Shown piece after piece: positions 10,682 to 37,043 of a DNA stretch of 49,525 nucleotides (positions are counted from its first letter, which is position 1; every line of letters begins with the position of its first letter). The translations under genes and the position numbers were made by a program. The notes beneath the pieces were generated by a model. The model searched no databases and was not told the DNA's origin. It saw only the letters and a list, made by a program, of their open reading frames with translations. This DNA comes from Candidatus Methylomirabilota bacterium (lineage in GTDB: Bacteria; Methylomirabilota; Methylomirabilia; Rokubacteriales; CSP1-6), in NCBI GenBank assembly GCA_036001065.1, contig DASYUQ010000053.1, forward strand, positions 1 through 49,525. The letters run 5' to 3'.

Positions 10682-10749
10682 CGTTCCCACTCCCGGAAAA
10701 TAAATTCTTCACGTTGTAAGTCGTGGAATATCCAACTACGGGGGTGGAC

Positions 10750-14127: not shown

Positions 14128-14286
14128 GCTGACCGTCCAGTCCTCCGCGCGGCCGTCGACGCCCCCGCGCCGGCGGCCGCGCCTTCCCACGGTTACCTGC
14201 AACCAAGTTCCGGCGTCGTGCATTTTTGTGCAGGCTCCCCGTCCGCAGGCCAGAAAATTCGCGAGGTTTCGGGCCTGCGTTCCCCG

Positions 14287-14301
14287 GGTACGCCTCTTGC
14301 G
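14287..14301 (+). promoter_or_regulatory. Sigma54-type promoter, O-antigen ligase operon
   Basis: GGGTACGCCTCTTGC has GG and GC ten bases apart; ACG and TTGC match consensus while the -24 first base and C are changed. The predicted start near 14313 gives a 68-nt leader to the ATG at 14381. Apart from this site, 14128-14380 holds no gene that I can see. Confidence 0.6.
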
Positions 14302-14380
14302 CTGTCTTCAGGCCGGAGGCCCAAGGTATGCGCGTTGCCGTCGTGGACCACCCGACCTTTTTGAGGCTCCCCGACTAGCC

Positions 14381-15643
14381 ATGTGGCTCCTGCTCCTGAT
14401 GATCCTGGTGATGCCCTACGAGCAGAGTCCCTACCTCTACATCGGCGAGAGCTTCCTCGGGGTCATCCCGGACTTCACCGTCATCAAGCTGCTGGGACTC
14501 CTGGGGTTCGGCTGGGCGCTGGTCCGCCTGGCGTCGGGAGGGATTCCCGAGGGCGTCCTGGCCTCCCGGCAGGCCAAGCTCTTCGCGACGTTCTTCGTGG
14601 GCGTGATCCTGGCCGGGCTGCTCAGCGGCACCGGCTTCATCGCGGTGTCTCGGTACCTCGCCTTCCTGCTGTTCCTGCCCTTCGTGCTGGCGAGCGTGCG
14701 CTCGCACGAGGACCTCCGGCGCATCCTTTACGCGATGGTACTGGGCTTCGTCCTGACGTTCCCCTATGGCTTCCGCCAGATGCTCCGGTACGGCGACCGG
14801 ATGGGCGTGGGGCTCTACGAGCCGAACTACTTCGCCGCCAACCTCGCCCTGGTCATCCCGGTGGCGCTGGCCATCACCAGCGTGCAGCCGACGTCGCGGA
14901 AGCGGATGCTGTGGCTCCTGGTGAGCCTGGTGCTGGTGGCGAGCCTCTTGCTGACCTCGTCCCGCGGCGGCTTCCTGGGCCTGCTGGTCGCCGCGACCAT
15001 CTTCGTCTACCGGCGCCGGGGCGCCGGCGCCGCGGTGGCGCTGGTGGTCGCGCTGGTGTTGGCCGCGCTGCCGACGAACCTGGGCGAGCGGGCACTCGCT
15101 ACGCTCTTCCAGGACAGCGAGGCGCCGGCCGGCCTGGAGGCGTCGAACGAGGCGCACGTGGCCCTGTTCTGGGGCGCGCTCCGCATGATCGCCGACGCGC
15201 CGCTGACCGGCGTCGGCCCCTACAACTTCAAGACGTTCAGCACGGCGTACTCCGGCCTCGAACGGGACTTCATCGCGCACAACAGCTACCTGGAGCTGGC
15301 CGCCGAGCTGGGGTTGCCGGTGCTCGTCATCTTCCTCCTGCTGGTCGCTGCGGTGTTCCGGGGCCTGCGTCGCGCCGTGGCGATGGGATCGGGCGGGCCG
15401 GCGCAGCGCGAGCTGGCGGCGTGGGCGGAAGGGTTGCGGAGCGGGCTCATCGGGTTCCTGGTGGCGGGCACCTTCATCAGCGCCCAGTACGAGAAGTGGT
15501 TCTGGCTCGTCATCTTCTTGTCGATCGTCGTCGAGCGCCTGGCGGCCCGCCGCGAGGCGACGGTGGGTGGCGAGAGCGTTCCGGCCGTTCTGCCCGCTCC
15601 CTCCTGGCCCGCGACGCCGGCCTCGGGGTTCCCCGCGCGGTGA
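14381..15643 (+). CDS. O-antigen ligase / polymerase family membrane protein
   Basis: 420 residues with about ten membrane segments. The Wzy_C / WaaL-type landmarks are present: LLLTSSRGGFLGLLVA in the middle, a periplasmic loop with GVGPYNFKTF, and HNSYLELAAELGLPVL, whose His is the family's conserved catalytic residue. Such proteins ligate or polymerise lipid-linked glycans at the periplasmic face, and one is usual in exosortase loci. The ATG at 14381 starts the first membrane segment (MWLLLLMILVMPYE); an upstream in-frame extension is possible but lies across the predicted sigma54 start. Its TGA overlaps the next start as GTGA. Confidence 0.85.
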   Translation: MWLLLLMILVMPYEQSPYLYIGESFLGVIPDFTVIKLLGLLGFGWALVRLASGGIPEGVLASRQAKLFATFFVGVILAGLLSGTGFIAVSRYLAFLLFLPFVLASVRSHEDLRRILYAMVLGFVLTFPYGFRQMLRYGDRMGVGLYEPNYFAANLALVIPVALAITSVQPTSRKRMLWLLVSLVLVASLLLTSSRGGFLGLLVAATIFVYRRRGAGAAVALVVALVLAALPTNLGERALATLFQDSEAPAGLEASNEAHVALFWGALRMIADAPLTGVGPYNFKTFSTAYSGLERDFIAHNSYLELAAELGLPVLVIFLLLVAAVFRGLRRAVAMGSGGPAQRELAAWAEGLRSGLIGFLVAGTFISAQYEKWFWLVIFLSIVVERLAARREATVGGESVPAVLPAPSWPATPASGFPAR

Positions 15644-18816: not shown

Positions 18817-19773
18817 TCAGCGCGAGGCCAGGAAGCTCGAGCCCGCGTAGTTGCGCCGCAGACGGCGGAGCCCCACCCGCAGAGAGCGCAGGGGCGCCAG
18901 CGTGCCCGAGCGCAACGACGCGTAGACCGCCCCCAGCATCACGCCTATGACGAACCAGCGGAAGGCCAGGCGGTTGCCCAGCGTTTTCGGCTGGTGCTTG
19001 TCGAAGACGAAGCCCCAGCTCGTCAGCAGCGTTTCTTCGTAGCGTGTGGCCGGGCGCGGCGCGCGGTTGTGGACGACGCGGGCGTCGGTAGCGATCGCCA
19101 GGCGGGCGCCGCGGGCCCGGAGCGCCCAGGAGAGATCGATGTCCTCGCCGACCGAGGCGCCCCGGTAACGGCGGTCGAAGTGGATCCCGCCCAGGGCCTC
19201 CCGCCGCGCCGACAGCATCCCGCCCCCCAGCATCCCGACCGGCGCCAGCCTCGTTCCGCGGTAGCGGCGCCAGTTCCAGTACACCCGCTGGCGGTCGTCG
19301 CGGAACGGGCCCCGGCAGAAGATCGCGCCGAAGAGACGCTCGGGGAAGGGCGGCGGCGTGTAGTTGGTGATGACCGGAGTGATCGCCGCCACCTCGGGAT
19401 GGCCCCGATAGTGCTCGTGGAGGCGCTCGAGCACGTCGGGCTCGGGGACCATGTCGTCGTCGATGCAGATCACGATATCCATCGTGGCGAGGTCCAGGCC
19501 GACGTTGCGGGCGGCGGCGGCGCCGTCGATCGCGCGGTCCCGGAGGTACGTCAGCGGCGGTCGCCGTTCGGGGGGCGCCGAGGCCAGCAGCTCCTCGACG
19601 AGCGCGCGACCGTGATCGCTGTCGCTCTGGTCGACCACGATCAGCTCGTCGACGGGGACGGTCTGCGCCAGCAGGCACGAGACGACGTTGGCCAGGAGGC
19701 CCGGGCGGTTCTTGGTCGGGATGATCGCCGACATCGTCGGGCGGGTGGGCGCCGTGACCTGCTCAGGCCGCAT
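18817..19773 (-). CDS. Glycosyltransferase family 2
   Basis: 318 residues. A GT-A fold starts MSAIIPTKNRPGLLANVV, with VVDQSDSDHG, the D-x-D-type metal motif ICIDDDM, GAAAARNVGLD, and SVGEDIDLSWALRARG as acceptor-binding motif. The C-terminal 80 residues carry one hydrophobic segment (FRWFVIGVMLGAVYASL) that may attach it to the membrane. It overlaps the fusion gene by 11 bp and is the last gene of the long leftward operon. It likely adds a sugar to the lipid-linked repeat unit at the cytoplasmic face; donor unknown. Confidence 0.85.
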   Translation of the reverse strand: MRPEQVTAPTRPTMSAIIPTKNRPGLLANVVSCLLAQTVPVDELIVVDQSDSDHGRALVEELLASAPPERRPPLTYLRDRAIDGAAAARNVGLDLATMDIVICIDDDMVPEPDVLERLHEHYRGHPEVAAITPVITNYTPPPFPERLFGAIFCRGPFRDDRQRVYWNWRRYRGTRLAPVGMLGGGMLSARREALGGIHFDRRYRGASVGEDIDLSWALRARGARLAIATDARVVHNRAPRPATRYEETLLTSWGFVFDKHQPKTLGNRLAFRWFVIGVMLGAVYASLRSGTLAPLRSLRVGLRRLRRNYAGSSFLASR

Positions 19774-22069
19774 CGGTCGCGCTCCCCAGCCGGCCGGCGC
19801 GGCGCAGCAGGGCCACGCCCAGCATGAACGGCACCAGCATGACGAAGTAGACGACCTTGCCGTAGGCGATGTGGAAGAAGCCCATCGCCGTCTCCGGCCC
19901 GTAGTAGTGCGCCAGCACGCCGGTGCCGGCGACGCGGATGAGGTTCGCCGTGATGGCCACCACGATGGCCAGGGCCAGGATGGCGGCGCGCCGCCCGGCG
20001 CGCCGTTGCGTCGTCCAGGCGAACGCGGTGCCCACCACGATCATCGCCAGCAGGAACCTCAGCCCGTTGCAGGCCTCGGTGACGTGCAGGACGACGCCGG
20101 GAATGTGGATGCCGAGCCCGTCGCGCACCGTGGGAATTCCCAGCGCGGCCAGCGCGTGCCCGGCGAACCACGCGGCGAGCTCCTGGAGCGGCAGCGAGAT
20201 GGCGGGAATCGCGCCCTGGGGAAGCGGCGCCATGAAGACGAGGAAGGCGATCGGAAAGGCGATCGCGCCGAAGCACCGGCGCCCGAGCAGGAGGATGCCG
20301 GTGCCGGTCAGGACGGCAGGGAGGGAGAGTGCCTGGATGGTGAGGCTGCCCGCCGCCGCGCCCGTGGCCAGGACCGCCAGCCCGCCCGCCAGCAGCGCGA
20401 GCCCCGCCGGCGACCATGCCGGCTGCCCGGCGGCGAGCCGGCGCCGGGCGTCCCAGATCCCGTAGCCGGCGAAGAGCGGCACCACGAACCCGTGCGAGTA
20501 GTACGGAACGGTGGCCCAGACGTCGACGAGACCCCGCATCACCGGCGCGTAGAGCGTGACGAAGCAGGCGGCGGCCACGGTGCCCAGCCCGATGACCACC
20601 GGGCGGCGCGGGATTCGCTGCGCGGAGGTGCGGAGAAGATTCCACTCGCGCGGGCCCAGGGCGCCCAGCGCGAGAGCGGCGGCCACGAAGACCGCCAGCC
20701 CCAGCGCGGCCGCGCCCACCAGGCCGGCGGGGTTCGGCCCCTCGGCCGCGGCCAGCCGCGTCGCCACCAGCGCCATGGCCCCCGCGGCAGCGATGCGGCC
20801 GAGGTCGAGGGCCGGGAAGCCGCATCCCTGGCGTCCGGTGACGGCCACGAAGGCCAGGACGGAGGCGGTGAGCTGCGCCAGGGTGTTGGCCACGACGGCG
20901 CCCCACATGCCGAAGCGCGGGATGAGCAGCGCCGCCGCTCCGATGTTGAGCACGGCGCTGATCCAGGTGGCGTTGAGAGCCCAGCGCCGGTCGCCGCTGG
21001 CGCGCAGAGCCGCCCAGGCGACCTGGCGCATGACGCCGATGAGCGCGACCCCAAGCATCGGCCCGAGCAGGAGCGCCACCGGCCGGTACGGCTCGCCGTA
21101 GAGCAGCGTGATCGCCCCGGGGGCCAGGGCCGTCCCCACCGCCGCCAGCGGCGCGCCCACCAGCGCCACCCAGCGGAGGGCCGCGCGGTACACGCGACCG
21201 AACTCCTCCCCCGCGCCGCGGCCGTGGATCGAGGCCAGTGCGGGCAGGAGCGTCCCGGCGGCGATCTCGGCGGCGATCATGCCTTTGGTGGCCAGGCCGA
21301 AGGCGACGCTGTAGAACGCGATCTGCTCGGCGGGCGCGTAGAGCCGGAGGAAGAAGACCTCCGACCGATCCCAGACCAGCGCGTCGAGGACCGCGACGAT
21401 GGAGAGCGGCAAGAGATAGCCTCGGAGCTCGGCCCGCACCCCGTCGGGGATCGGCGCGCTGCGGTCCGGGTAGAGCGTCAGCGCGCGCCGGCGCTGGAGC
21501 GCGCACGAGATCGTCGTGCCGATGGTGCCGCCGATCACGAGGCCGAGGATGTCGGCCCCCAGCGCCAGCGCGGCGATCGCTCCCAGGAGGTGCAGCGTCA
21601 TCTTCAGCGTCGAGGCCTGCGTCGTCAGGTCGTAGCGCTGCGCCCCGTAGGCGGCGTGGGAGTAGATGCCTTCGAGCGTGATCGGGAAGAGGCCGACGAT
21701 CACGAAGACGAGCGGCCACAGCAGGTCACGGGGGGCGGTCCAGACGACGACGGGGAGGAGCCCCGCCGCGACGACCGCGGCGGCGATCACCTGCCGGCGC
21801 GTGAAGAACCGGACGAGGGCGCCGGCCAGCGCCCGCTCGCCCTGCCCCAGCGCTTCGGCGGTGTAGCGCGTCGTCGCCAGGGCGAAGCCGAGCGTGGCCA
21901 GCGCCGTCATCGTCCTGAAGAGCCAGAGCAGATAGGAGTAGTCGCCCATCCGCTCCGGCCCCAGGCCCCGGGCCAGCAGGATGGACATGAGCAGCCCCGC
22001 GACCAGCCCCAGGCCGGTGACGACGCCGTACCAGAAGGTGTTGCGCAGGATCGTCTCGCGGATCGTCAT
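19763..22069 (-). CDS. Fusion of Wzx-type polysaccharide flippase and exosortase
   Basis: 768 residues in one unbroken frame. Residues 1 to about 480 are a polysaccharide flippase of the MATE/Wzx superfamily: ILRNTFWYGVVTGLGLV, SILLARGLGPERMGDYSYLL, then twelve or more membrane segments ending at LGPREWNLLR. Residues about 485-768 are an exosortase: PYYSHGFVVPLFAGYGIW, FLVFMAPLPQG, then the catalytic Cys (about 667) in EACNGLRFLL, Arg (about 712) in NLIRVAGTG and His (about 733) in FFHIAYGK. Flippases move lipid-linked glycan to the periplasm; exosortases are Cys transpeptidases that process PEP-CTERM tails. Encoding both as one protein is unusual. Starts at the ATG of an ATGA overlap with the GT2 gene. 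Confidence 0.88.
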   Translation of the reverse strand: MTIRETILRNTFWYGVVTGLGLVAGLLMSILLARGLGPERMGDYSYLLWLFRTMTALATLGFALATTRYTAEALGQGERALAGALVRFFTRRQVIAAAVVAAGLLPVVVWTAPRDLLWPLVFVIVGLFPITLEGIYSHAAYGAQRYDLTTQASTLKMTLHLLGAIAALALGADILGLVIGGTIGTTISCALQRRRALTLYPDRSAPIPDGVRAELRGYLLPLSIVAVLDALVWDRSEVFFLRLYAPAEQIAFYSVAFGLATKGMIAAEIAAGTLLPALASIHGRGAGEEFGRVYRAALRWVALVGAPLAAVGTALAPGAITLLYGEPYRPVALLLGPMLGVALIGVMRQVAWAALRASGDRRWALNATWISAVLNIGAAALLIPRFGMWGAVVANTLAQLTASVLAFVAVTGRQGCGFPALDLGRIAAAGAMALVATRLAAAEGPNPAGLVGAAALGLAVFVAAALALGALGPREWNLLRTSAQRIPRRPVVIGLGTVAAACFVTLYAPVMRGLVDVWATVPYYSHGFVVPLFAGYGIWDARRRLAAGQPAWSPAGLALLAGGLAVLATGAAAGSLTIQALSLPAVLTGTGILLLGRRCFGAIAFPIAFLVFMAPLPQGAIPAISLPLQELAAWFAGHALAALGIPTVRDGLGIHIPGVVLHVTEACNGLRFLLAMIVVGTAFAWTTQRRAGRRAAILALAIVVAITANLIRVAGTGVLAHYYGPETAMGFFHIAYGKVVYFVMLVPFMLGVALLRRAGRLGSATDAA

Positions 22070-23235
22070 GCAGCACGGTCTCTGGCGGAGGCCTGGCGCC
22101 CCGGTGCCCAGATAGCCTCGGCACCGCCACGCAGATAACGTGCCAGGCCGCCGACTCCAGCCGCGCTCACCACGCAGAAGTAGTACGGGATGGCCAGCTT
22201 GCCGAGGGCCAGGCCGCGCCGCTCGGCGGCGGCGGCCGCCAGCGCCACGCCGTAGAACGCGACCTGGACGACCATGGTGATGCCGTAGAGCGGATCGCGG
22301 TCGAGCAGCCCGAGATTCGCGGTGAACGCGAGGACCAGGCAGGGGGCGCTCGCCCACCGGAGCACGCGGTGCGACACGAGCGCCCACACGCCGCGTGCGC
22401 AGCGCGCGGCGACCAGGCGGGGCAGCCACTGGCGCGTCAGCGCGATGCCCTGGGCGATGATCCGCACGTGACGCCCGAACTCCTGGCGCGCGTCCCGGGA
22501 GGGCGGCTCGAGCGTGTAGGCGTGCGGATCGAAGCGCGACACGCAGCCGGCCAGGGCCGTCTGCAGGGGGTGCAGCAGATCGTTGACTTCCGCGGGCTGG
22601 AGCGGACGGAAGATCGCCCGCCGGATCGCGTAGATGGCGCCGTCGGCGCCGGCCAGAAAGCCCAGCGCGCTCTCGCCGCATTTGATGAGCGCCTCGTAGC
22701 GGACGTAGCCGTTGCCGACCGCCCGGGCGTCACCGTCGCCCGCCGTCCCGTAGAGCCCCTGGCCGCTGACGAGTCCGACGCGCGGGTCGTCGAAGAGCGC
22801 GGTCAGCCGCGTCAGCGCTTCGGGGGTGAACAGAGCGTTGGCGTCCGTGAAGACGAAGATCTCGCCCGTGGCGGCGGCCACGCCGCGGTTGAGGGCGGCG
22901 GACTTGCCGGCGCGCGGCTCCTGGCGGATGAGCCTGGCGCGCCGGTCGGGACAGCCCAGGACGATCTCGTCGGTTCCGTCGGTGGATCCGTCGGAGACGA
23001 CGATCACCTCGAGCCGGTCGGCCGGGTAGCGTTGGGTGAGCGTGCTGGCGAGCTTAGCCTCGATCCACTTCGCCTCGTTGAAGGCGGCGATGATGACCGA
23101 CAGGCGCGGGCGCGACCTCAGCGAGCGCCGCGGCGGCGGCGCCAGCCAGGCGATGAGCGCCAGCAGGAGCGGATAGCCGACGTACGCATATCCGACTGTC
23201 AGAACGGCGAGCCAGAAGATCAGTTCGAGCGTCAT
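22066..23235 (-). CDS. Membrane glycosyltransferase family 2 (polysaccharide synthase-like)
   Basis: 389 residues. One N-terminal membrane segment (LIFWLAVLTVGYAYVGYPLLL) is followed by a cytoplasmic GT-A domain: LSVIIAAFNEAKWIEAK, SDGSTDGTDE, FTDANALF (metal motif), GADGAIYAIRR. Two or three C-terminal membrane segments close it. The layout fits processive or membrane-anchored GT2 enzymes of the BcsA/PgaC type, but the Q-x-x-R-W motif is not seen (FGRHVRIIAQG in its place), so single-sugar transfer is more likely. Overlaps its neighbours by 4 bp on both sides. Confidence 0.83.
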   Translation of the reverse strand: MTLELIFWLAVLTVGYAYVGYPLLLALIAWLAPPPRRSLRSRPRLSVIIAAFNEAKWIEAKLASTLTQRYPADRLEVIVVSDGSTDGTDEIVLGCPDRRARLIRQEPRAGKSAALNRGVAAATGEIFVFTDANALFTPEALTRLTALFDDPRVGLVSGQGLYGTAGDGDARAVGNGYVRYEALIKCGESALGFLAGADGAIYAIRRAIFRPLQPAEVNDLLHPLQTALAGCVSRFDPHAYTLEPPSRDARQEFGRHVRIIAQGIALTRQWLPRLVAARCARGVWALVSHRVLRWASAPCLVLAFTANLGLLDRDPLYGITMVVQVAFYGVALAAAAAERRGLALGKLAIPYYFCVVSAAGVGGLARYLRGGAEAIWAPGRQASARDRAA

Positions 23236-24362
23236 CGCTGGAGCGACAGCGCGGAGCGGTAGACGCGCGCCGTTGCCTCGACCTGGCGCGCGAGATCGAA
23301 GCGCTCGACTGCCGCCGCCCGGGCAGCGGCGCCCAGCCGCTGCGCGCGGTCAGGATCGCCGAGCAGCGCGCACAGCGCGCGGGCCAGCGCGCGGGGATCC
23401 GCCGGGGGCACGAGCAGGCCGGTGGTCCCGTCGCCCACGACCTCGGGCGTGCCGTCGACCGCGGTGGCCACGACCGGCCGGGCCATCGCCCCCGCCTCGA
23501 TCGCGGTCAGAGGCATGCCCTCGTAGAGCGAGGGCAGCGCGAGGACGTCGATGGCATCGAGCAGCCGCGCGATGTCGGTCCGGAATCCGGTGAAGATCAC
23601 CGATGCCGCCAGGCCCGTGTCGCGGGCGCGCGCCTCCAGCGCCCCCCGGAGGCTGCCGTCGCCGACCACCAGCAAGCGGGCGTCGGGAACCTCGCCCAGC
23701 ACCGCCGGCCAGGCGTCCAGCAGGTAGAGGTGGCCCTTCTGGGCCTCGAGCCGGCCCACCACGCCCACCACCGGCGTTTGGCCATCGAACCCCAGCTCCT
23801 TGCGCACGGCCTCGCGGTCGCGCCCGGGCGCGAACGCGGAAAGGTCCCGGCCGTTGGGCACGACGACGATCTTGTGGGGCGGGTAGCCTTTGCCCCGGGT
23901 GAGGAAGTCACGCGCCGCCTCCGACACGGCGATGACCCGATCCACACACCGCGCGACGAGGCGGTCGGGCAGGAACGATCCCCGGATCGCGCCGCGCCGC
24001 CATCCCTCGCGCCCGTGATAGGTCTCCACGACCGCCGGGACGCCATGCCAGCGGGCGAGCGGCGCGGCCACGGCGGTGGAGCGGAAGAGGTGCGGGTTCA
24101 CGATGTCCGGGCGCACGCGGTCGATGAACCGGCCGAGCCGCCGGACTGCGGTCGTCCCGAGCCAGCCCTCGGCCTGAACGGCCAGCGTGTCGACCCGCGT
24201 GCGGCCGAGATCCGGGGCGAAGGCGTCGAGCAGCGGCGCCGGCGCGGCCAGCGCCAGGCTGAACTCGGCGGGGTCGAGGCGCTGCAGCAGCGCCAGCACC
24301 ACCTCTTCCACGCCGCCCCGCGCGGGCGAGGTGAGCACGAACATCAGACGGATGCGCCTCAC
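23232..24362 (-). CDS. Glycosyltransferase family 4
   Basis: 376 residues from a GTG that overlaps the upstream stop (GTGA). The GT-B fold has MFVLTSPARGGVEEVVLALL (glycine loop), NPHLFRSTAV, VIAVSEAARDFL, VVVPNGRDLSAF, GVVGRLEAQKG and the E-x7-E motif LPSLYEGMPLTAIEAGA. It transfers a sugar from a nucleotide donor onto a lipid-linked acceptor in the cytoplasm. Specific sugar unknown. Confidence 0.87.
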   Translation of the reverse strand: MRRIRLMFVLTSPARGGVEEVVLALLQRLDPAEFSLALAAPAPLLDAFAPDLGRTRVDTLAVQAEGWLGTTAVRRLGRFIDRVRPDIVNPHLFRSTAVAAPLARWHGVPAVVETYHGREGWRRGAIRGSFLPDRLVARCVDRVIAVSEAARDFLTRGKGYPPHKIVVVPNGRDLSAFAPGRDREAVRKELGFDGQTPVVGVVGRLEAQKGHLYLLDAWPAVLGEVPDARLLVVGDGSLRGALEARARDTGLAASVIFTGFRTDIARLLDAIDVLALPSLYEGMPLTAIEAGAMARPVVATAVDGTPEVVGDGTTGLLVPPADPRALARALCALLGDPDRAQRLGAAARAAAVERFDLARQVEATARVYRSALSLQR

Positions 24363-26924: not shown

Positions 26925-27574
26925 GCCGCCCGGACCCCCGCCGCCCTCTGCCGGCGCGCCAGGCGTGCCCGGATGACTGCCGCGGCCACTTCGGCAATGG
27001 CCTCGAGGCGCCCGGTGTTGATCAGGACCAGATCGGCCCAGACCTTCGTGGGCTCCACGAACCGCCCGTGAGCCGGCAACACCGTCGCCCGGTACTGCTC
27101 GAGGACGGACTCCGCGGTGCGGCCGCGCTCGGCGGTGTCCCGTGCGATCCGACGCGCCAGCCGGAGGCCGTCGGGCGCGTCCACGTAAATGCTGAGGTCG
27201 AGAAGGTCACGGACCAGCGGGTCGTGGAGCAGCAGGATGCCCTCGACCAGGACGACCTCGCGCGGCTCGAGCGGCTCGCCCGGCTCCAGCCGGCAGTGCG
27301 TGGCGAAGCAGTAGCGCGGTGGTATGATCCGGTCCCCGCGGCGGAGCGCTCCCAGGTGGGCGCGGAAGAGCTCCTGATCGAGGGCCGGGGGGACGTCGAA
27401 GTTGAGCTGTCTGCGGCCGGCCGGCTCCACATCGCTGCGGTCGCGGTAGTAGGCGTCATGGACCAGCAGGGCGACGCGCGGGGGGCCGAGGGCCGCGGCG
27501 ATCACCTGCACGAGCGCCGTCTTGCCGGCGCCGCTGCCGCCGGCGACGCCGACGAGATAGGGCGCGACTGTCAT
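26921..27574 (-). CDS. Uridine kinase-like P-loop kinase
   Basis: 217 residues. The P-loop GVAGGSGAGKTALVQ is followed by VHDAYYRDRSD and LNFDVPPALDQELF, the lid and substrate signatures of the uridine kinase / phosphoribulokinase family, with VVLVEGILLL as the second acidic strand. Uridine kinases phosphorylate uridine or cytidine with ATP or GTP. Within a polysaccharide operon it may supply UTP for sugar nucleotides or phosphorylate another small molecule. Starts at the ATGA overlap with the GT4 gene. Confidence 0.85.
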   Translation of the reverse strand: MTVAPYLVGVAGGSGAGKTALVQVIAAALGPPRVALLVHDAYYRDRSDVEPAGRRQLNFDVPPALDQELFRAHLGALRRGDRIIPPRYCFATHCRLEPGEPLEPREVVLVEGILLLHDPLVRDLLDLSIYVDAPDGLRLARRIARDTAERGRTAESVLEQYRATVLPAHGRFVEPTKVWADLVLINTGRLEAIAEVAAAVIRARLARRQRAAGVRAA

Positions 27575-28746
27575 GCCATCGCCTCCGCCGACTCCGCCCC
27601 CGCCACCTGGCCGAGCAGCGCCTCGTAGCGACGGGCAACCGTGGGCCAGCTGTAGCAGCGCTCGACCAGGGCCCGCGCATTGCACGCCAGCGTGTCCGCG
27701 GTGGTGCCGTCGCTCAGGAGCGTGAGCACGGCCTGGGCGGTGGCGTCGTCGCTATCGGCGACGAGCAGGTGGCGGCCGGCCGCCACGTCCCGGAGGCCGG
27801 AGAGGCTGCGCGGGGAGGCCACGATCGGCGTCCCCAGCGCCATCGCCTCGAGGATCTTATTCTTCATCCCGAAGCCGGCGCGGAGCGGGCTGACGTAGAC
27901 GCCGGCGCCCCAGATGCTGGGCCGGAGGTCGGGGACGGTGCCGGTGACGCGGACACCGGGCAGCGCGCCGAGCGCGCGCACGGCGGGGACGGGGTCCGCG
28001 CCGGCCACGACGAACTCGGCCCGCGGGACCGCCGCGCGCACCTTCGGGAAGATGACCGTCGCGAAGCGGCGCGCGGCGTCGACGTTGGGAGGCCAGGCCA
28101 GGTTGCCAGTGAAGACGATCCGCCCCGGCTGCCCCGCGCGGCGGAACTCGTACTGGCGCAGGTCGATGCCCGTCGGGATCACCTGGGTCCGCGCGCTCAG
28201 GCCGAGTCCGGCCAGGGCCGTGCGATCCTCCTCGGAGAGGACGACGCAGGCGTCGGCTGCCCCGAACCAGCGGTGCTCCCACGCCGCCTCGCGCCGCTCC
28301 AGAAGGCCGGCCCGCAGCCAGGCCCAGGGCGTGCGGGCCAGGCGCCTGAACTCCCGCGCGCGCAGCGCGCGCGAGTCGTGGATCGAGAGCACCGTGGGGA
28401 CGCCGTTGACGCGCGCCAGCGGCGCCAGGACGCCACCCTCCAGGTGAATCACGTCGGGGGCGAACCGCTCGAGGGCGCGTAGCACCGCCGCGCGGAGTCG
28501 GGCCACGCCCTCGTCGGGAGCGCCGGTCAGGGGATGTGACCAGCGCGCCAGCGGCACCGTCTCGGTCCAGGCGCAGAAAGGTATCGGCCACCGCTGCTGC
28601 TCGGGGGTCTCCGCGGGCGTAGCGGCGGCGATGAGGGCTACCCGGTGGTGGCGCGCGAGGTTCTGCAGCAGGTGCGCGGCCAGCACCCGGAAGCCGTCGT
28701 GGCAGGGCAGGTATGGCGTCATCTGCGAGACGATGAGGATACGCAT
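27571..28746 (-). CDS. Glycosyltransferase family 4 of the exosortase system (TIGR03087 type)
   Basis: 391 residues. MRILIVSQMTPYLPCHDGFR begins the GT-B fold, as in the sugar transferase that usually accompanies XrtA loci. VPTVLSIHDSRAL, VIPTGIDLRQYEF, FTGNLAWPPNVDAARRF and VSPLRAGFGMKNKILEAMALG (acceptor and donor motifs) follow. Cytoplasmic; sugar unknown. It begins 9 bp after the deacetylase stop. Confidence 0.87.
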   Translation of the reverse strand: MRILIVSQMTPYLPCHDGFRVLAAHLLQNLARHHRVALIAAATPAETPEQQRWPIPFCAWTETVPLARWSHPLTGAPDEGVARLRAAVLRALERFAPDVIHLEGGVLAPLARVNGVPTVLSIHDSRALRAREFRRLARTPWAWLRAGLLERREAAWEHRWFGAADACVVLSEEDRTALAGLGLSARTQVIPTGIDLRQYEFRRAGQPGRIVFTGNLAWPPNVDAARRFATVIFPKVRAAVPRAEFVVAGADPVPAVRALGALPGVRVTGTVPDLRPSIWGAGVYVSPLRAGFGMKNKILEAMALGTPIVASPRSLSGLRDVAAGRHLLVADSDDATAQAVLTLLSDGTTADTLACNARALVERCYSWPTVARRYEALLGQVAGAESAEAMA

Positions 28747-28755
28747 CGCGGCTCC

Positions 28756-29646
28756 TCAGGAGGCCGCGGAAGGTGCGAGCGCGGACGGCGACGGTCGGAT
28801 CTGGCCGAAGGCGGCCGCGACGGGCGTGAACGTGAACTCGCTCAGCAGGGCCGCGAGCTTGACCTCGGTACGCTCGAGCCCCACGTAATGGCGGAAGCGG
28901 TGGATTCGCTTCATCGGAAGGCGCGGCTGGTCGGGGTCGAGCTCCCACGGGTGCACGTAGAGCACGGCGGGCCGGCCCTCGCGCCGGTTCACGCTGGCGA
29001 TGGCCGCGCGGAGCAGTGCGAGCGGGAAGAGGCGGAAGAAGCCGCCGCCCAGGGGCAGGTTGACGCCCGCGAAGCGCGCGGTGCCGACCGGCACCTCCCA
29101 GAAGTCGACGCCGTCGCTCTCCAGGGCCACGTGGGGAAACCGGGGAGCGTCGGGGAAGCCGTAGCGGTCATGGGCGATGGGGTGCACGCTCGAGTCGTAC
29201 GCGTAGCCTTCCTCGTACAGCGTCGGCAACGCCCACGGCGTGTCGCGCCGGAGAGAGTAGTTCGGCGCCCGGTAGCCCCAGACGGCGTGGCCGGAGGCCT
29301 GCTCGAGCGCGCGCTTGGCGGCGCGGACGTCGCGACGAAAGCGCTCCGGCCCCAGCGCGGGCAGCAGCGTGTGGTCCCAGCCATGGGAGGCGATCTCGTG
29401 CCCGCGCTCGACGATGGTTCGCACCAGGCGGGGATGGCGTTGCGCGACGATCCCCAGCGTGAAGAAGGTGGCGCGGGCGCGGTAGCGCTCCAGGAGGTCG
29501 AGCAGCCGCTCGGTCTGGTCCACGACGCGGCTGGGCAGGCGCGCCAGGCCGTCGCCGCCGAGCGCTTCCGTGAACTCGACGCCGTGGTAGTACTCCTCGA
29601 CGTCGACGGTCAGGACGTTGACGGAACGGGCGGAATCAGGCGGCAC
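28756..29646 (-). CDS. Polysaccharide deacetylase of the exosortase system (TIGR03006 type)
   Basis: 296 residues. The NodB/CE4 motifs are visible: LTVDVEEYYHG (catalytic/metal Asp), HEIASHGWDH (metal His pair), GYRAPNYS, and YDSSVHPIAHDRYGFPDAP. These enzymes remove N-acetyl groups from GlcNAc-type residues. The lack of a signal peptide is usual for this subfamily. It overlaps the kinase-like gene by 11 bp. The C-terminal 45 residues are Ala/Pro/Ser-rich. Confidence 0.88.
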   Translation of the reverse strand: MPPDSARSVNVLTVDVEEYYHGVEFTEALGGDGLARLPSRVVDQTERLLDLLERYRARATFFTLGIVAQRHPRLVRTIVERGHEIASHGWDHTLLPALGPERFRRDVRAAKRALEQASGHAVWGYRAPNYSLRRDTPWALPTLYEEGYAYDSSVHPIAHDRYGFPDAPRFPHVALESDGVDFWEVPVGTARFAGVNLPLGGGFFRLFPLALLRAAIASVNRREGRPAVLYVHPWELDPDQPRLPMKRIHRFRHYVGLERTEVKLAALLSEFTFTPVAAAFGQIRPSPSALAPSAAS

Positions 29647-30688
29647 GCGAGCCCCCGAGCGCCAGGACCGCGCGCCAGCCGGCGGCGTCGCCGTCGCGCT
29701 CTACCACCGTGCGCTCGTCGTCGTTGAAGATGACGCCGAGCACGCGGTCGGGCCCCACCGCGTTCAGGCTGTCGCGCACCATCTCACGCGGCGTGCGGTT
29801 GGCGCGCACGACGAGGACGAAGCCGTCCACCAAGTCGCGCAGGATCCCGACGTCCGGGGACGGCAGCACCGGCGGCGTGTCGACGACGACGAAGTCGAAC
29901 CGCTCCCGCAGCCCCGCGAGGAGCGCGCGCAGGCGCGGTGACTTCAGCAGCTCGTAGGGCATCGACGAGACGGGCCCGGCGACGACGACGGCGAAGCCGA
30001 CGCCCTCGGGGCGCTCGAGGACGGCATCGAGGGTCATCGCATGATCGAGCAGGTAGCCCGAGAGTCCGCGGCTGTTGGGCAGCCCGAGATAGCGCGCCAC
30101 GCCGGGATGGCGGACGTCCACCTCGACCAGGGCGACGCGGGCATCGGGCGCCTGGGCCAGCGCGCCGGCGATGTTGATCGCCGAGATCGTCTTGCCGTCG
30201 CCCCGCGCGGGAGAAGAGATGGCCACCAGGCGGACGTCCCGCTCCCGGCGGAGGTTCTCGATGTGCAGGCGCACCGTGCGGTACTGCTCGGCGGCGAGGC
30301 TGGTTGGCTCCAGCAGGCTGACCAGGTGATCGTCGAGCTCGCCGGGCTCCGCCGCCGGCGGCGGCTCGAGGACGCTCTGGAACCCGCGGCCGCCCGCCTC
30401 CCGCGCCAGCGGCGCGCCGTAAGCCGGCGAGTGCGGACTGGACGGCGCGGCCTTGACCGTCTTCGGCGGCGCCGGGGGCCGGCTGGGGGCCGAGGGCGGT
30501 GTCGTCGCCGGGGCGACCGATGCTTTGGCGGGGGCGGCGGGCGGAGCAGCCGGCGGCGCCGCCGCGCTGACCGGCGTCGCTGGCGCGTCCGTCCGCTCGT
30601 CCACCGGACGGGGTTCAGCGGGAGAGACGCGCGGTTGGCTCTCGCGCTCCCGCTCGGCGTTCTCGAGCGCCTTGAAGAATTTGCTCAC
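29636..30688 (-). CDS. Tyrosine-kinase-like P-loop ATPase of the exosortase system (TIGR03018 type)
   Basis: 350 residues. The first about 110 residues are Pro/Ala-rich and disordered after a short helix (MSKFFKALENAERERE). The ATPase domain has an altered Walker A (SSPARGDGKTISAINIA), Walker A' (VALVEVDVRHPG) and Walker B (DFVVVDTPPVL), the trio of bacterial BY-kinases. BY-kinases work with Wzz-type proteins to set chain length. The usual C-terminal Tyr cluster is missing: the tail is ERDGDAAGWRAVLALGGSRAA without any Tyr, so autophosphorylation there is not possible. The partner is probably the Wzz-like protein at 31738. Confidence 0.86.
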   Translation of the reverse strand: MSKFFKALENAERERESQPRVSPAEPRPVDERTDAPATPVSAAAPPAAPPAAPAKASVAPATTPPSAPSRPPAPPKTVKAAPSSPHSPAYGAPLAREAGGRGFQSVLEPPPAAEPGELDDHLVSLLEPTSLAAEQYRTVRLHIENLRRERDVRLVAISSPARGDGKTISAINIAGALAQAPDARVALVEVDVRHPGVARYLGLPNSRGLSGYLLDHAMTLDAVLERPEGVGFAVVVAGPVSSMPYELLKSPRLRALLAGLRERFDFVVVDTPPVLPSPDVGILRDLVDGFVLVVRANRTPREMVRDSLNAVGPDRVLGVIFNDDERTVVERDGDAAGWRAVLALGGSRAA

Positions 30689-30778: not shown

Positions 30779-31741
30779 TCACGGCAGCCAGCCGACGGCG
30801 TTCGCCGCGACGACCAGCATGACGATCAACACCAGGACGAGCACGGCGACACCGCCGCGCGCCGCCCATACGGCGCCCGGGCTGGGCACGAGGCTCGCCT
30901 GGCGCTTGCGCTTCCAATGAGGCCGTTCGCCCTCCTCGAGGTACTCGATCGCCTCGTCAACCATGGCCGCATCGATCCGCCGCTTGCTGTCGGCGTAGCC
31001 GCTGATCAGGCAGTGGTCGCAGACGATGTTCACGATCCTCGGGATGCCGCGGCTGTACTCGCTGACCTTCTGGACCGCCCCGTCCGTGAAGATGCCGGGG
31101 TCGGCGGCGCCGGCCACGCGCAGCCGGTGGCGGATGTAGAGCCGGGTCTCCTCCGGCGACAGCGGCCCGATGTGACAGCGGAGCCCGATGCGCTGCTTGA
31201 GCTGACGCAGCTCCAGCATGTTCAGCTTGACGCGCAGCTCGGGTTGCCCGACCAGCAGGATCTGAATCAGCTTCTGGTTCGTCGTCTCGAAGTTCGAGAG
31301 GAGACGGACGGCCTCCAGCGCCTCGACCGAGAGGTTCTGGGCCTCGTCGATGACCAGCACCGGGGACAATCCCTGCCGGTGCTGCTCGATGAGGAACTCG
31401 TTCAGCTCGAAGAGGCGCTGGGCGTGCGTGGTCGCGGTGGACTTGATGCCCCAGTCCTGCAGCATGTACTCGAGCAGCCCTTCGATGCTCAGCGCGGAGT
31501 TGTGGATGTAGGCGACCGGCGTGTTGCCGTCGAGCCGCTCCAGCAGCGTGCGGAGCAGCGTCGTCTTGCCCGTCCCGATCTCGCCGGTGAGCACGATGAA
31601 GCCCTTTCGCTCGCGTACGCCGTAGACGAGTTGGGCCAGCGCCTCGCGGTGCCGGACGGACTGGAAGAGGAACTTGGGGTCCGGTGTCGGGCTGAAGGGT
31701 GCGTCGCGGAGGCCGTAGAACTCGAGGTACATGCGGCTCAC
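30779..31741 (-). CDS. ExeA-like AAA ATPase of the exosortase system (TIGR03015 type)
   Basis: 320 residues. YGLRDAPFSPTPDPKFLF is the typical start of this family. Walker A is GEIGTGKTTLL, Walker B is LVIDEAQNL, and sensor motifs lie near LLSNFETTNQK and LLVGQPEL. A C-terminal membrane segment (VAVLVLVLIVMLVVAANAV) anchors it. Its function in XrtA loci is unproven; by analogy to ExeA it may act on the cell wall or on assembly. Overlaps the Wzz-like gene by 4 bp (ATGA). A 90-bp spacer to the next gene holds no recognised site. Confidence 0.88.
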   Translation of the reverse strand: MSRMYLEFYGLRDAPFSPTPDPKFLFQSVRHREALAQLVYGVRERKGFIVLTGEIGTGKTTLLRTLLERLDGNTPVAYIHNSALSIEGLLEYMLQDWGIKSTATTHAQRLFELNEFLIEQHRQGLSPVLVIDEAQNLSVEALEAVRLLSNFETTNQKLIQILLVGQPELRVKLNMLELRQLKQRIGLRCHIGPLSPEETRLYIRHRLRVAGAADPGIFTDGAVQKVSEYSRGIPRIVNIVCDHCLISGYADSKRRIDAAMVDEAIEYLEEGERPHWKRKRQASLVPSPGAVWAARGGVAVLVLVLIVMLVVAANAVGWLP

Positions 31742-33408
31742 CTCTTGCCGGCCAGCGTGTCCACTGGCGTCAGCCTGCCCACGAGGGCGTCGTTCTTGTG
31801 GGCCACGGCGAAGGACGAGCCGACCACCAGGAGTAGCCCCACCGCCACGGCCGCGGTCGCCAGCCGCCGCTGGCGCACCAGGCGCGCGCGGTCCCGCTCG
31901 GTCGCGATCGTGGGGATCGCCGACAACACGGGGACGGGCAGGCTGGCGCGGACCTCGTCCACGCTCCGGTACGAGGTGTCCACCTGCTCGGCGAAGACGA
32001 CGGCCAGCGCGCTGGCGCCCGCGGCCAGGACGAGCCCGATCAAGAGCAGCCGCAGGCGGTTCGGTCCCGCCGGGCGCTCGGGCAGGGAGGCCGGCTCGAT
32101 GATGCGGAAGCGCTCGCCCTTCTGGCGCTGCTCGAGGTCGGCCGCGATCCCGGCCTCGCCGCGCTTGCCCAGCAACGAGCGGAAGAGCTCGCGGGTCGTC
32201 TCGTAGTCGCGCGTGATGAGCGCCAGCTCCTGCTCGCGCCGCGGCGTGTTCTCGATCCGGCGCTGGTAGGACCCGATCTGCCGGTTGAGCGCGGCGACCT
32301 CCTCGCCGGTGGTCTTGGCCTCGACGTTGGCCTGATCGAGCTGCTGCAGGAGACTCACGATGTACGGGTTCTGGGGCGCCACCCGCAGCTCCCGGCCCTC
32401 GCGCCGGGGAGCCGCCTTCGGCCCGGGCGCCGCCTGCGACTCCGCCACCTTGGCCTCCAGAGCCCGGATCTGGTCCTTGAGGGCCACGACGTCGGGGTAG
32501 CGGTCGGTGTAGCGGGTCTGCATCTGGGCCAGCTCCTGTTTGAGGAGGCTCAGGCGCGCGGCGGCGGCTTCGGTCGGGGTCACGTTCGGGCCGCTGGCGC
32601 CGGCGCTGGCCAGCCCGCTGGTCTGGTCGATCTCGGCCAGGCTACGGGTGATGAGCTGGCGGCGCTCGTTGGCGCGCCGGCCGCTTTCGTGAGCCAGCTG
32701 CAGCTGCTGCTGCAGCCGCTCCAGCGTCCTCAGATTCGCCTCGCGCTGCTCGGGCAGCTCGCCCATGTGCTGCGCCTTGTAGTCGGCAATGCGTCTTTCC
32801 TGCTCCTGCAGGCGAGCGCGCACTTCGTCCAGCTGGGTCTCCAGGAACTCGGAGGTGCCGGCCGCCTGCTTCTCGCGGAACTTGAGATTCTCGTCGACGT
32901 AGAGGCCGGCCAGCTTGTTGGCGACGACCATCGAGGTGCGGGGGTCGGTCGTCGAGTAGGCCACGCTGAACGCCACCGTCCTCGGCTCCCCCCGGCCGCG
33001 GCTCTTGGCGTCGCCCTGGAAGTCGAGGCGGATGTCCCGTCGCATCCGCTCGACCACGTCGTCGATCGAGTGGGACCGACGCAGGCCGGGGTAGAGATCG
33101 AGCTCCTCGATGATCCTGGCCAGGCGCGGCCGGCTGAGGATCTCCTGGCTCAGCGTGAGCAGCTGGCCATCGAGGTCGCCGGTGACTGTCGGCTTGACGA
33201 ACGATTCCGGGATCTGCTGGCGGTCGACCAGGACCACCGCCCGGGCCGTCCAGAGCCCGGGCAGGAAGAAGGCGAGCGAGGCCGCCGCCGTCAGCACGAA
33301 GAGGAAGGGCAGGAGCGCCAGTGTGCGACGCCGGCGCACCACCTCGATCACGGACGCCAGCCCGAGGCCGCGCGCGGTGTCGGTGTTGCCGTTCGGTTGA
33401 GTCGTCAT
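31738..33408 (-). CDS. Wzz-type chain-length determinant of the exosortase system (TIGR03007 type)
   Basis: 556 residues. Two membrane segments flank a long periplasmic part: LALLPFLFVLTAAASLAFFL near residue 40 and LLLIGLVLAAGASALAVVFA near 460. Between them are a Wzz domain, a long coiled coil (about 170-430, rich in Glu, Gln and Arg) and TRDYETTRELFRSLLGKR before the second segment. A third hydrophobic segment (LATAAVAVGLLLVVGSSFAVA) lies near the C terminus. It controls polymer length and export in the inner membrane with the kinase-like protein at 29636. Confidence 0.88.
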   Translation of the reverse strand: MTTQPNGNTDTARGLGLASVIEVVRRRRTLALLPFLFVLTAAASLAFFLPGLWTARAVVLVDRQQIPESFVKPTVTGDLDGQLLTLSQEILSRPRLARIIEELDLYPGLRRSHSIDDVVERMRRDIRLDFQGDAKSRGRGEPRTVAFSVAYSTTDPRTSMVVANKLAGLYVDENLKFREKQAAGTSEFLETQLDEVRARLQEQERRIADYKAQHMGELPEQREANLRTLERLQQQLQLAHESGRRANERRQLITRSLAEIDQTSGLASAGASGPNVTPTEAAAARLSLLKQELAQMQTRYTDRYPDVVALKDQIRALEAKVAESQAAPGPKAAPRREGRELRVAPQNPYIVSLLQQLDQANVEAKTTGEEVAALNRQIGSYQRRIENTPRREQELALITRDYETTRELFRSLLGKRGEAGIAADLEQRQKGERFRIIEPASLPERPAGPNRLRLLLIGLVLAAGASALAVVFAEQVDTSYRSVDEVRASLPVPVLSAIPTIATERDRARLVRQRRLATAAVAVGLLLVVGSSFAVAHKNDALVGRLTPVDTLAGKR

Positions 33409-33420
33409 GGCCTGGCTCGC

Positions 33421-34122
33421 CTAGGGGACGACGATGACGTCACCCGGCTTGAGCACCAGGTTCTGCTCGTCGCCGGAGTTGGACACCGCCCGGTTGTAGT
33501 TGAAGCGGAGCTTCTGCGTCTGACCATTGCCGTCGGTCCGGATGATCGTGATCTTGCTCGGCGAGGCGAAGTCGCGGAACCCGCCGGCCATGGCGATGGC
33601 CTCGAGGACTGTGGTAATGCCGCGCAGCTCGAGGACGCCCGGCTTCTGCACCTCGCCGAGGACGGACACGCGCATGCTGTGGACTTCGGTCACGCTGACG
33701 GACACCTCCGGGTTCGGCAGGAACTCGCCGAGCGCCGTGGAGATCTTGTCGCGGAGCTGCATCGCGGACAGGCCGGCGGCGTGGATGTCGTGCAGCAGCG
33801 GCATCGAGATCTTGCCGTCGGGACGGACGGGGACGACGCGCGAAAGCGTCTCGTTCTTCCACACGGAGACCTGCAGCACGTCGCCGGGTCCGATGATGTA
33901 GTCCGACGGCAGCGGCGTGGTGGCCCCCAGCGCTGGGGTGGTGGTCGGCGACGCGGCCGGCGGCGCCGCCGGAGCGGGGCGCGCGGGGGGCGGCGTCGGC
34001 GGCGCCGGCGACGGCTGCGGCCTGACCGGCGGACGGGTCTGCGGCTGGGCGGCGGCCAGCGTGAAGGGGCCGATGGCGACCACGAGGGTGAATCCGAGGA
34101 CGAGCGACTTCACGAGTCTCAT
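33421..34122 (-). CDS. Polysaccharide export protein (Wza/PEP-CTERM type)
   Basis: 233 residues. A signal peptide (to about residue 26, FTLAAAQ) is followed by a Pro-rich stretch and the poly_export/SLBB pair: DYIIGPGDVLQVSVWKNETL, VRPDGKISMPLL, then VLGEVQKPGVLELRG and VLKPGDVIVVP. No lipobox Cys is seen, unlike Wza. It forms or gates the outer-membrane export channel. It lies 25 bp after the activator gene and 12 bp before the Wzz-like gene. Confidence 0.88.
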   Translation of the reverse strand: MRLVKSLVLGFTLVVAIGPFTLAAAQPQTRPPVRPQPSPAPPTPPPARPAPAAPPAASPTTTPALGATTPLPSDYIIGPGDVLQVSVWKNETLSRVVPVRPDGKISMPLLHDIHAAGLSAMQLRDKISTALGEFLPNPEVSVSVTEVHSMRVSVLGEVQKPGVLELRGITTVLEAIAMAGGFRDFASPSKITIIRTDGNGQTQKLRFNYNRAVSNSGDEQNLVLKPGDVIVVP

Positions 34123-35660: not shown

Positions 35661-37001
35661 TCAACCCGGTCTCTTGCCGCTGAGGACGAACTTCACGGTG
35701 TCGAAGAGAATCCTCAGGTCGAAGGTGAGTGCCATGTGCTTGATGGAGTAGAGGTCGTAGCAGAGCTTTCGCGTGACCTCTTCGATGCTCATCGAGTAGC
35801 CCGCCCTCACCTGGGCCCACCCCGTGAGCCCGGGCCGCACTTCGTGGCGGAGGTTGTAGAAAGGGATGAGGGCCGAGAAGGTGGCGACGTTCTGCGCCAT
35901 TTCCGGGCGGGGGCCGACCAGGCTCATGTCCCCGCACAGGATGTTGATGAACTGCGGGATCTCGTCGAGCCGGTAGCGCCGCAAGACCGCGCCCACGTGC
36001 GTGACGCGACTGGCGTTGTCGCGGATGACCGTATCCCGCTCTTCCGCCATGCGCATCGTGCGGAACTTGACGAGGCGGAAGATCCGGCCGTGGAGCCCCA
36101 CGCGCTCCTGGATGAAGAAGACAGGCCCGGGGCTCTCGAGCTTGATGAGCAGCGCGATCATTGCCATGAACGGCGCGCTCACCGCGAGCGCGCCGACCGC
36201 GATCACCACGCTCAGCGCCCGCTTGACCGCCAGCTTGGCGGGTGTCACCCGGAAGCCGTCGCCGAAGATCAGCGCGCTGGGGGTGAGTGACTCCACCGCC
36301 AGGCGCTGGTTGCAGCGTTCGTAGACCTGCGTGCCCTCCTCGATGCGCACGCCGCGGAAGCGGCAGGCCAGCAGCTCGGTCAACGGCAGCTGGCCGCGGC
36401 GGTCCGGCACCGCGACGATGATCCGGTCCGGCCGGTAGCGGCGGACGACCTCGGCGACCTCGCCGTACCGTCCCAGGTGCGGCGCGGGCGCCGGCGCCGC
36501 CGGCTCACCGAGAACGCCGACGAGCCGGAGCGCGAGGTCGGGGCGCGTGCGGATCTGCTGGGCCAGCTCCCAGGCCAGCGAGCCCCCACCCATGATGAGC
36601 ACGCGCTCGGAGAAGGGCGCGCGCTTGGCGAGCGTGTAGACGGCGGCTCGGGTGAGCAGCAGCGCGACCAGGAGGACGATCAGGACGTGGGAGGCGACGT
36701 TGCCCGGGATGATCGTCGCGGGGAACACGAGGTAGGTGACGGCGAGGAACAGCGCGCTCCAGCCGAGCGCGCGACACAGGCGGCCGAACAGGCTGGGAAA
36801 GTCGTGCGGGGTCTCGAAGTTATAGAGATCGTTGAAGTAGAGGGAGCCGACACAGACCGCCACCACGATCACGGCCCGCACCGCCAAGCCCCAGAGCGTC
36901 GCCGGGTCCAGCCCGGGCTGCAGCCAGAGCAGGATCGCGAAGCTGAGGATCCCCAGCGTCGACAGTCCCTCGAACCAGGCAAGCCGTTGCGCAAGCGTCA
37001 T
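35661..37001 (-). CDS. Exopolysaccharide priming sugar transferase (TIGR03013/TIGR03025 type)
   Basis: 446 residues from the ATG at 37001. A GTG 30 bp further upstream is in frame, but the sigma54-type promoter at 37044 would start transcription right at it, so the ATG is preferred. Four N-terminal membrane segments, a CoA-binding-like Rossmann domain (ERVLIMGGGSLAWELAQQI) and a bacterial sugar-transferase domain (VISAPFMAMIALLIKLESPG-type hydrophobic hairpin, FRTMR, RRYRLDEIPQF, SLVGPRPEM) are in the usual order. It loads the first sugar phosphate onto undecaprenyl phosphate. It stands just upstream of the operon and has its own promoter. Confidence 0.88.
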   Translation of the reverse strand: MTLAQRLAWFEGLSTLGILSFAILLWLQPGLDPATLWGLAVRAVIVVAVCVGSLYFNDLYNFETPHDFPSLFGRLCRALGWSALFLAVTYLVFPATIIPGNVASHVLIVLLVALLLTRAAVYTLAKRAPFSERVLIMGGGSLAWELAQQIRTRPDLALRLVGVLGEPAAPAPAPHLGRYGEVAEVVRRYRPDRIIVAVPDRRGQLPLTELLACRFRGVRIEEGTQVYERCNQRLAVESLTPSALIFGDGFRVTPAKLAVKRALSVVIAVGALAVSAPFMAMIALLIKLESPGPVFFIQERVGLHGRIFRLVKFRTMRMAEERDTVIRDNASRVTHVGAVLRRYRLDEIPQFINILCGDMSLVGPRPEMAQNVATFSALIPFYNLRHEVRPGLTGWAQVRAGYSMSIEEVTRKLCYDLYSIKHMALTFDLRILFDTVKFVLSGKRPG

Positions 37002-37043
37002 GAAATCGCCAGGCGTTGTAAACCTGTTCACCCCCGCCTAAGC

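Follow-up and report, generated by a model that had tools for sequence, protein, structure and literature searches.

Introduction

Exosortases are believed to connect the processing of proteins with the export of exopolysaccharides. The exosortase EpsH has been described in fusion with EpsI (TIGR02914), a C-terminal partner of no known function, and in four fusions with CAAX-protease-like domains (Haft et al., 2006; PMC1569441), a paper in which it was also noted that EpsH itself had once been proposed to be a flippase or a polymerase. For archaeosortase A, which belongs to a related sortase family, C-terminal lipid attachment of the substrates has been reported (PMC7157517).

Here we describe a gene that codes for an exosortase fused to a flippase. 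It is located in a stretch of 49,525 nucleotides (the window; contig DASYUQ010000053.1 of assembly GCA_036001065.1, Candidatus Methylomirabilota bacterium). As in the EpsH-EpsI fusions, the exosortase is joined in one polypeptide to a component of its cluster, but here the partner is a predicted 14-TM flippase located at the N-terminus, and EpsI (DUF3485, PF11984) is absent from the genome of the window. The fusions of EpsH with CAAX prenyl protease-like domains also combine an exosortase with a membrane-protein domain and have served as a Rosetta-stone argument, whereas the partner is protease-like in those proteins and a glycan-lipid flippase in this one. No report of a flippase-exosortase fusion was found in the literature searched, most subscription papers being outside its scope. 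Each of the domains is known, as is the cluster; it is their combination that appears to be undescribed.

Results

The sequence-only reading of the window had proposed, with no strand stated, that a single frame of 768 residues at positions 19763-22069 codes for a multi-pass flippase followed by an exosortase with its Cys, Arg and His residues, the junction being near 20620. Translation of the window showed that these coordinates are exact and that the minus strand, from 22069 to 19763, codes for 768 amino acids and a stop, with zero internal stops. The proposed domain order was also found (PF01943 and PF03023 in the N-terminal part, PF09721 at residues 501-753) and is kept in two further MAGs; the three exosortase residues are present and conserved (Cys667, Arg712 and His733), and the proposed junction lies in the linker (nucleotides 20668-20588). 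A plus-strand reading of the same positions was rejected, since it gives a low-complexity antisense frame that is non-coding. The open frame extends upstream to 22681, and this extension overlaps the gene for a GT2 glycosyltransferase (22066-23235); the start was set at the ATG at 22069 by alignment with relatives. This ATG overlaps the stop of the upstream GT2 gene, and the 3' end of the fusion contains the start of the downstream GT2 gene, at 19773, which indicates that the fusion is a gene embedded in an operon (Table 1).

Table 1. Positions of the features described in the window, with the evidence for each.
Feature	Position	Strand	Evidence
Fused flippase-exosortase gene (768 aa; ATG at 22069, stop 19763-19765)	19763..22069	-	translation, Pfam/NCBIfam, full-length homologues
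Flippase domain, aa 7-467, 14 predicted TM helices, MOP superfamily	20669..22051	-	PF01943, PF03023, Foldseek
Linker, aa 468-494 (LGALGPREWNLLRTSAQRIPRRPVVIG), basic, predicted cytoplasmic	20588..20668	-	loop charge, pLDDT dip, dN/dS, no internal start
Exosortase domain, aa 501-753, 8 predicted TM helices, XrtA-like	19811..20569	-	PF09721, TIGR02602, TIGR03109
Codon of Cys667, presumed exosortase nucleophile	20069..20071	-	EACNGLRF motif; Cys aligned in other exosortases
Codon of Arg712, presumed catalytic Arg	19934..19936	-	aligned with other exosortases
Codon of His733, presumed catalytic His	19871..19873	-	aligned with other exosortases
Candidate polymerase or ligase (Wzy_C / O-antigen-ligase-like)	14228..15643	+	PF04932 60 bits; TIGR03097 56.5 bits, below cut-off
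GT2 glycosyltransferase, starts within 3' end of fusion; also after exosortase slot in relatives	18817..19773	-	PF00535, synteny
GT2 glycosyltransferase directly upstream of fusion	22066..23235	-	PF00535, synteny
GT4 glycosyltransferase, TIGR03088-related (XrtA-associated), below cut-off	23232..24362	-	
GT4 glycosyltransferase, TIGR03087-related (XrtA-associated), below cut-off	27571..28746	-	
XrtA-system polysaccharide deacetylase	28756..29646	-	TIGR03006 325.6 bits, over cut-off 276.2
XrtA-associated tyrosine autokinase-like	29636..30688	-	TIGR03018 131 bits, below cut-off 230.65
XrtA/PEP-CTERM-associated ATPase-like	30779..31741	-	TIGR03015 308.6 bits, below cut-off 324.5
XrtA-system chain-length determinant	31738..33408	-	TIGR03007 290.8 bits, over cut-off 278.85
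XrtA-system export protein-like (OPX)	33421..34122	-	TIGR03027 150.7 bits, below cut-off 180
Polyprenyl glycosylphosphotransferase (initiating sugar transferase)	35661..37031	-	TIGR03025 over cut-off; TIGR03013 just below

The N-terminal half matched in Pfam both PF01943 (residues 7-282; E=2e-10; 40.8 bits against a cut-off of 28.2) and PF03023, MurJ (residues 263-441; E=2e-9; 37.2 bits against a cut-off of 27.4). Foldseek searches gave matches to the MOP flippases MurJ (PDB 7wax, E=6e-8) and WzxE (PDB 9g9n, TMt 0.80) that correspond, by their length, to this half; the fold is shared, but identity is 13-18% and both proteins lack an exosortase domain. Judged by these profiles and by the structural model, the N-terminal half is a complete flippase of the MOP superfamily (Wzx/MurJ-like) with a predicted 14-TM MOP fold. 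Its putative cargo, read solely from the content of the cluster, is an undecaprenyl-linked glycan. The fusion is the sole PF01943 match of the genome, which was estimated by a tool to be 100% complete.

The C-terminal half matched Exosortase_EpsH in Pfam (PF09721; E=5e-63; 213 bits against a cut-off of 25.7), and its 178.6 bits for TIGR02602 in NCBIfam, over the cut-off of 105.55, place it in the general exosortase family. The subtype had been left by the sequence-only reading to a search of protein databases; the closest NCBIfam profile was that of XrtA (TIGR03109), with 202.6 bits against a curated cut-off of 208. Since this profile also stayed below 208 in all six relatives scanned, "XrtA-like" is the correct label. 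Alignment showed that the catalytic Cys, Arg and His are intact in the three fusions known (3/3), and the fusion is the sole exosortase of the genome of the window (G000). The Foldseek matches listed for the fusion model included no exosortase structure, no solved structure was found for the fusion by sequence, and plasmid records gave matches to the exosortase half only and none to the fusion.

The AlphaFold2 model obtained on alignment A2 had a mean pLDDT of 90.9 and a pTM of 0.73, and the TM helices were assigned by hand from hydropathy and this model. The Lys and Arg residues of the loops alternate, with 34 on one side versus 6 on the other, as expected for an N-in protein. This supports a predicted topology of 14 + 8 TM helices with the N-terminus and the basic linker in the cytoplasm and Cys667, Arg712 and His733 on the periplasmic side; the predicted helices and loop charges of the second half agree with the about 8 TM helices and the periplasmic active site of the exosortase family. 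The linker consists of 27 residues, and an internal pLDDT minimum of 71-74 was located at residues 480-500. Since the end of the flippase and the start of the exosortase are both predicted to be cytoplasmic, a direct join needs no additional helix. Separate initiation of the exosortase was considered and rejected: at the junction no internal start backed by a Shine-Dalgarno-like site was found, nor any start conserved together with an RBS.

The fusion is located in a near-complete XrtA/PEP-CTERM exopolysaccharide cluster. Other genes of the region were also noted. The minus-strand gene at 25701-26924 codes for a 407-residue protein that contains a nucleotidyltransferase-like GSFARGE motif and has no match in Pfam or NCBIfam; it is conserved at this position of the operon in related Rokubacteria loci, and it lies between genes that are phosphodiesterase-like (PF01663; 24359-25693) and uridine-kinase-like (26921-27685). 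Near the cluster, the plus-strand gene at 10723-13743 codes for a possible surface protein of about 1000 residues with Big_7 / Big_13 Ig-like domains and no PEP-CTERM tail.

Full-length fusions with no internal stop, 61-63% identical to that of the window, were found in L002 (MNEG01000084.1, genome G041) and L003 (QHTB01000179.1, genome G042), and Pfam detected both domains in each of them. These MAGs are Rokubacteria of a different genus from that of the window's genome, and in a tree of nine operon proteins the three fused genomes formed one clade (support 100/100). The flippase-exosortase fusion is therefore real and conserved, and the possibility that all close relatives have separate genes, which would have undermined the initial proposal, does not hold, since two other species share the fusion. 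Every fused example comes from a MAG contig, and an assembly or sequencing artefact joining adjacent genes was considered. It was rejected, and we give it practically no credence: three independent contigs, from separate assemblies and two genera, carry the same join, and in the split relatives a gene of about 950 nt or its remnant lies between the two parts, so a single-base error would not make the fusion out of that arrangement. Comparison of L002 with L003 gave NG86 dN/dS values of 0.17 for the flippase and 0.31 for the exosortase, and of about 0.83 over a 30-residue junction (residues 476-505) with few sites. Both halves are under purifying selection, and the linker is free.

None of 21 other exosortase loci of the phylum, inspected by composition and sequence only, showed a flippase-like upstream extension (0/21); most of them had short or non-coding-looking upstream frames. 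A further observation concerns L033 (G039:C56), which has its exosortase match within an open frame of 724 residues, about 418 of them beyond the exosortase, which may be another fusion or just a long frame.

The two proteins had been presented as known only as separate genes, and in line with this four Rokubacteria relatives (G066, G044, G045 and G065) have split operons. Their domains are orthologous to those of the fusion (roughly 52-59% identity), and the order and the cluster are the same, but the split operons have two genes with an epimerase, or its remnant, between them and the fusion does not. In G066, G044 and G045 the flippase gene is followed by that of an NAD-dependent sugar epimerase and then by that of the exosortase. 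In G065 (L004, G065:C73, about 11660-11710) an out-of-frame remnant of the epimerase start (MRILVTGGAGFIAA), comprising its first ~13 codons, lies between flippase and exosortase, and nothing separates the two parts in the fused genomes. G000, G041, G042 and G065 each have a paralogous epimerase (53-56% identical) at another place in the genome.

The fusion most likely arose by deletion of the middle epimerase gene, a direction that we infer from these loci; the simplest history is that a redundant middle gene was lost and that in one lineage this joined its neighbours in frame; in G065, judging by the remnant, the same gene was apparently deleted independently. An epimerase gained by insertion in the split relatives would be as parsimonious as deletion if the root lay on the fused branch, the tree being unrooted there: when the operon tree was rooted with G063, the outgroup branch was too long and the root among the three clades was not fixed, and the exosortase-only tree was weakly resolved. 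A deletion of this kind could also have been neutral, joining two operon genes with no effect beyond equal amounts of both proteins, the halves of which may be split by proteolysis. This reading overlaps the one we prefer, in which no benefit is claimed, and we regard it as a tentative second choice. The fast evolution of the linker, the redundant epimerase elsewhere in the genome and the independent loss in G065, where the genes stayed unfused, are in its favour, but the fused frame has persisted over two genera at about 62% identity, and all three members (3/3) are intact, with neither a stop nor re-separation.

In G062 (L040, G062:C52, 10777-14016) flippase and epimerase are directly followed by the GT2 gene. 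No exosortase was found anywhere in that genome, in which the sorting half has been lost naturally. Since G062 has a flippase operon without exosortase or detectable PEP-CTERM proteins, the two activities can be separated and the flippase does not depend on the exosortase, and the split relatives indicate that a covalent link is not required.

Members of the exosortase family are expected to be accompanied by PEP-CTERM substrates, and two such proteins above the PF07589 cut-off were found in G000, few when compared with classical systems. Both candidates, at C93 (ending in VTPEPLVGLLVGLGLLGARYLRRR) and at C142 (ending in AASEPLTLLVVGAGLVGAAALRRRLK), are located outside the cluster and are short, with signal-peptide-like N-termini. 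A third candidate, at C184, passes TIGR02595 only and its frame is unlike that of a normal gene. Nine genomes were scanned, with 2 PEP-CTERM proteins in G000, 7 in G041, 8 in G042, 2 in G044 (below the curated cut-off) and 8 in G045; none was found in G087 and G062, both without exosortase, nor in G065 and G066, although exosortases are present in these. G041 and G042 contain a second exosortase (G041:C26 and G042:C210; L079 and L078) with EpsI (DUF3485) adjacent or in the same frame, and their PEP-CTERM substrates are therefore not all assignable to the fusion. The few substrates in the genome of the window would suit a protein with only one active half, for example a working flippase with a relic exosortase, or vice versa. 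We consider this improbable, given that the catalytic residues are intact in every fusion, that dN/dS is well below 1 in both halves and that the genome has no second exosortase and no second PF01943 flippase.

Discussion

In certain soil Rokubacteria a surface-polysaccharide cluster has its sugar-lipid flippase and its protein-processing exosortase united in one membrane protein of about 22 predicted helices; in relatives these are two separate genes. We think it probable that this is a bifunctional fusion with two independent activities, those of an exopolysaccharide flippase and of a PEP-CTERM exosortase, which had a single origin through the epimerase-deletion route. The N-terminal 14-TM half would move the lipid-linked exopolysaccharide unit of the XrtA-type cluster across the inner membrane, and the C-terminal 8-TM half would cleave, and probably transfer, PEP-CTERM tails on the periplasmic side by means of Cys667, Arg712 and His733. 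The fusion would go back to a single event in an ancestor shared by two Rokubacteria genera, the likeliest route being deletion of the intervening epimerase gene, which left a linker that is short, basic and cytoplasmic. Most likely each half works independently, and the fusion would fix their ratio and location; that both activities share one membrane location, as had been claimed, is a direct consequence of the fusion. That both halves are active is suggested by motifs that are intact, by selection and by their presence in single copy, and any benefit of the fusion is an inference. Some observations fit this explanation less well: strong PEP-CTERM candidates are few here (two) and were not detected in G065 and G066 despite their exosortases, EpsI/DUF3485, often adjacent or fused to EpsH, is missing from the genome of the window, the protein could be cleaved after its synthesis, and all fused examples are MAGs. 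The proposal of EpsH as a flippase or polymerase is less attractive here, since the protein already contains a flippase domain apart from the exosortase.

Coupling at the level of the substrates would go further, in the direction of the joint handling of exported protein and glycan that the sequence-only reading had suggested. The flippase half would supply a lipid-linked glycan, or the lipid carrier, as acceptor for the PEP-CTERM protein cleaved by the exosortase half, glycan and protein being linked within one complex. A single protein carries both activities, with a short linker where they meet, flippase and exosortase are each present in single copy in the genome, and archaeosortase A, by analogy, is linked to C-terminal lipid attachment (PMC7157517). 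Nevertheless, we regard such coupling as unlikely: the join resembles a simple deletion between operon neighbours, the relatives keep the proteins separate, G062 retains the flippase operon without an exosortase, and the literature searched names no acceptor for exosortases. Also unlikely is a form in which the fusion would mark a real flippase-exosortase complex, the flipped lipid-linked glycan would be the acceptor of the cleaved PEP-CTERM protein or its source, and surface proteins would become covalently tied to exopolysaccharide during export.

The series formed by the flippase-epimerase-exosortase operons, the remnant in G065 and the fused genes makes visible how such a fusion may arise. 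The fusion also provides a single construct for testing coupling. That a genome has its only exosortase naturally joined to its only PF01943 flippase gives a hint, of the Rosetta-stone type, that both can work side by side.
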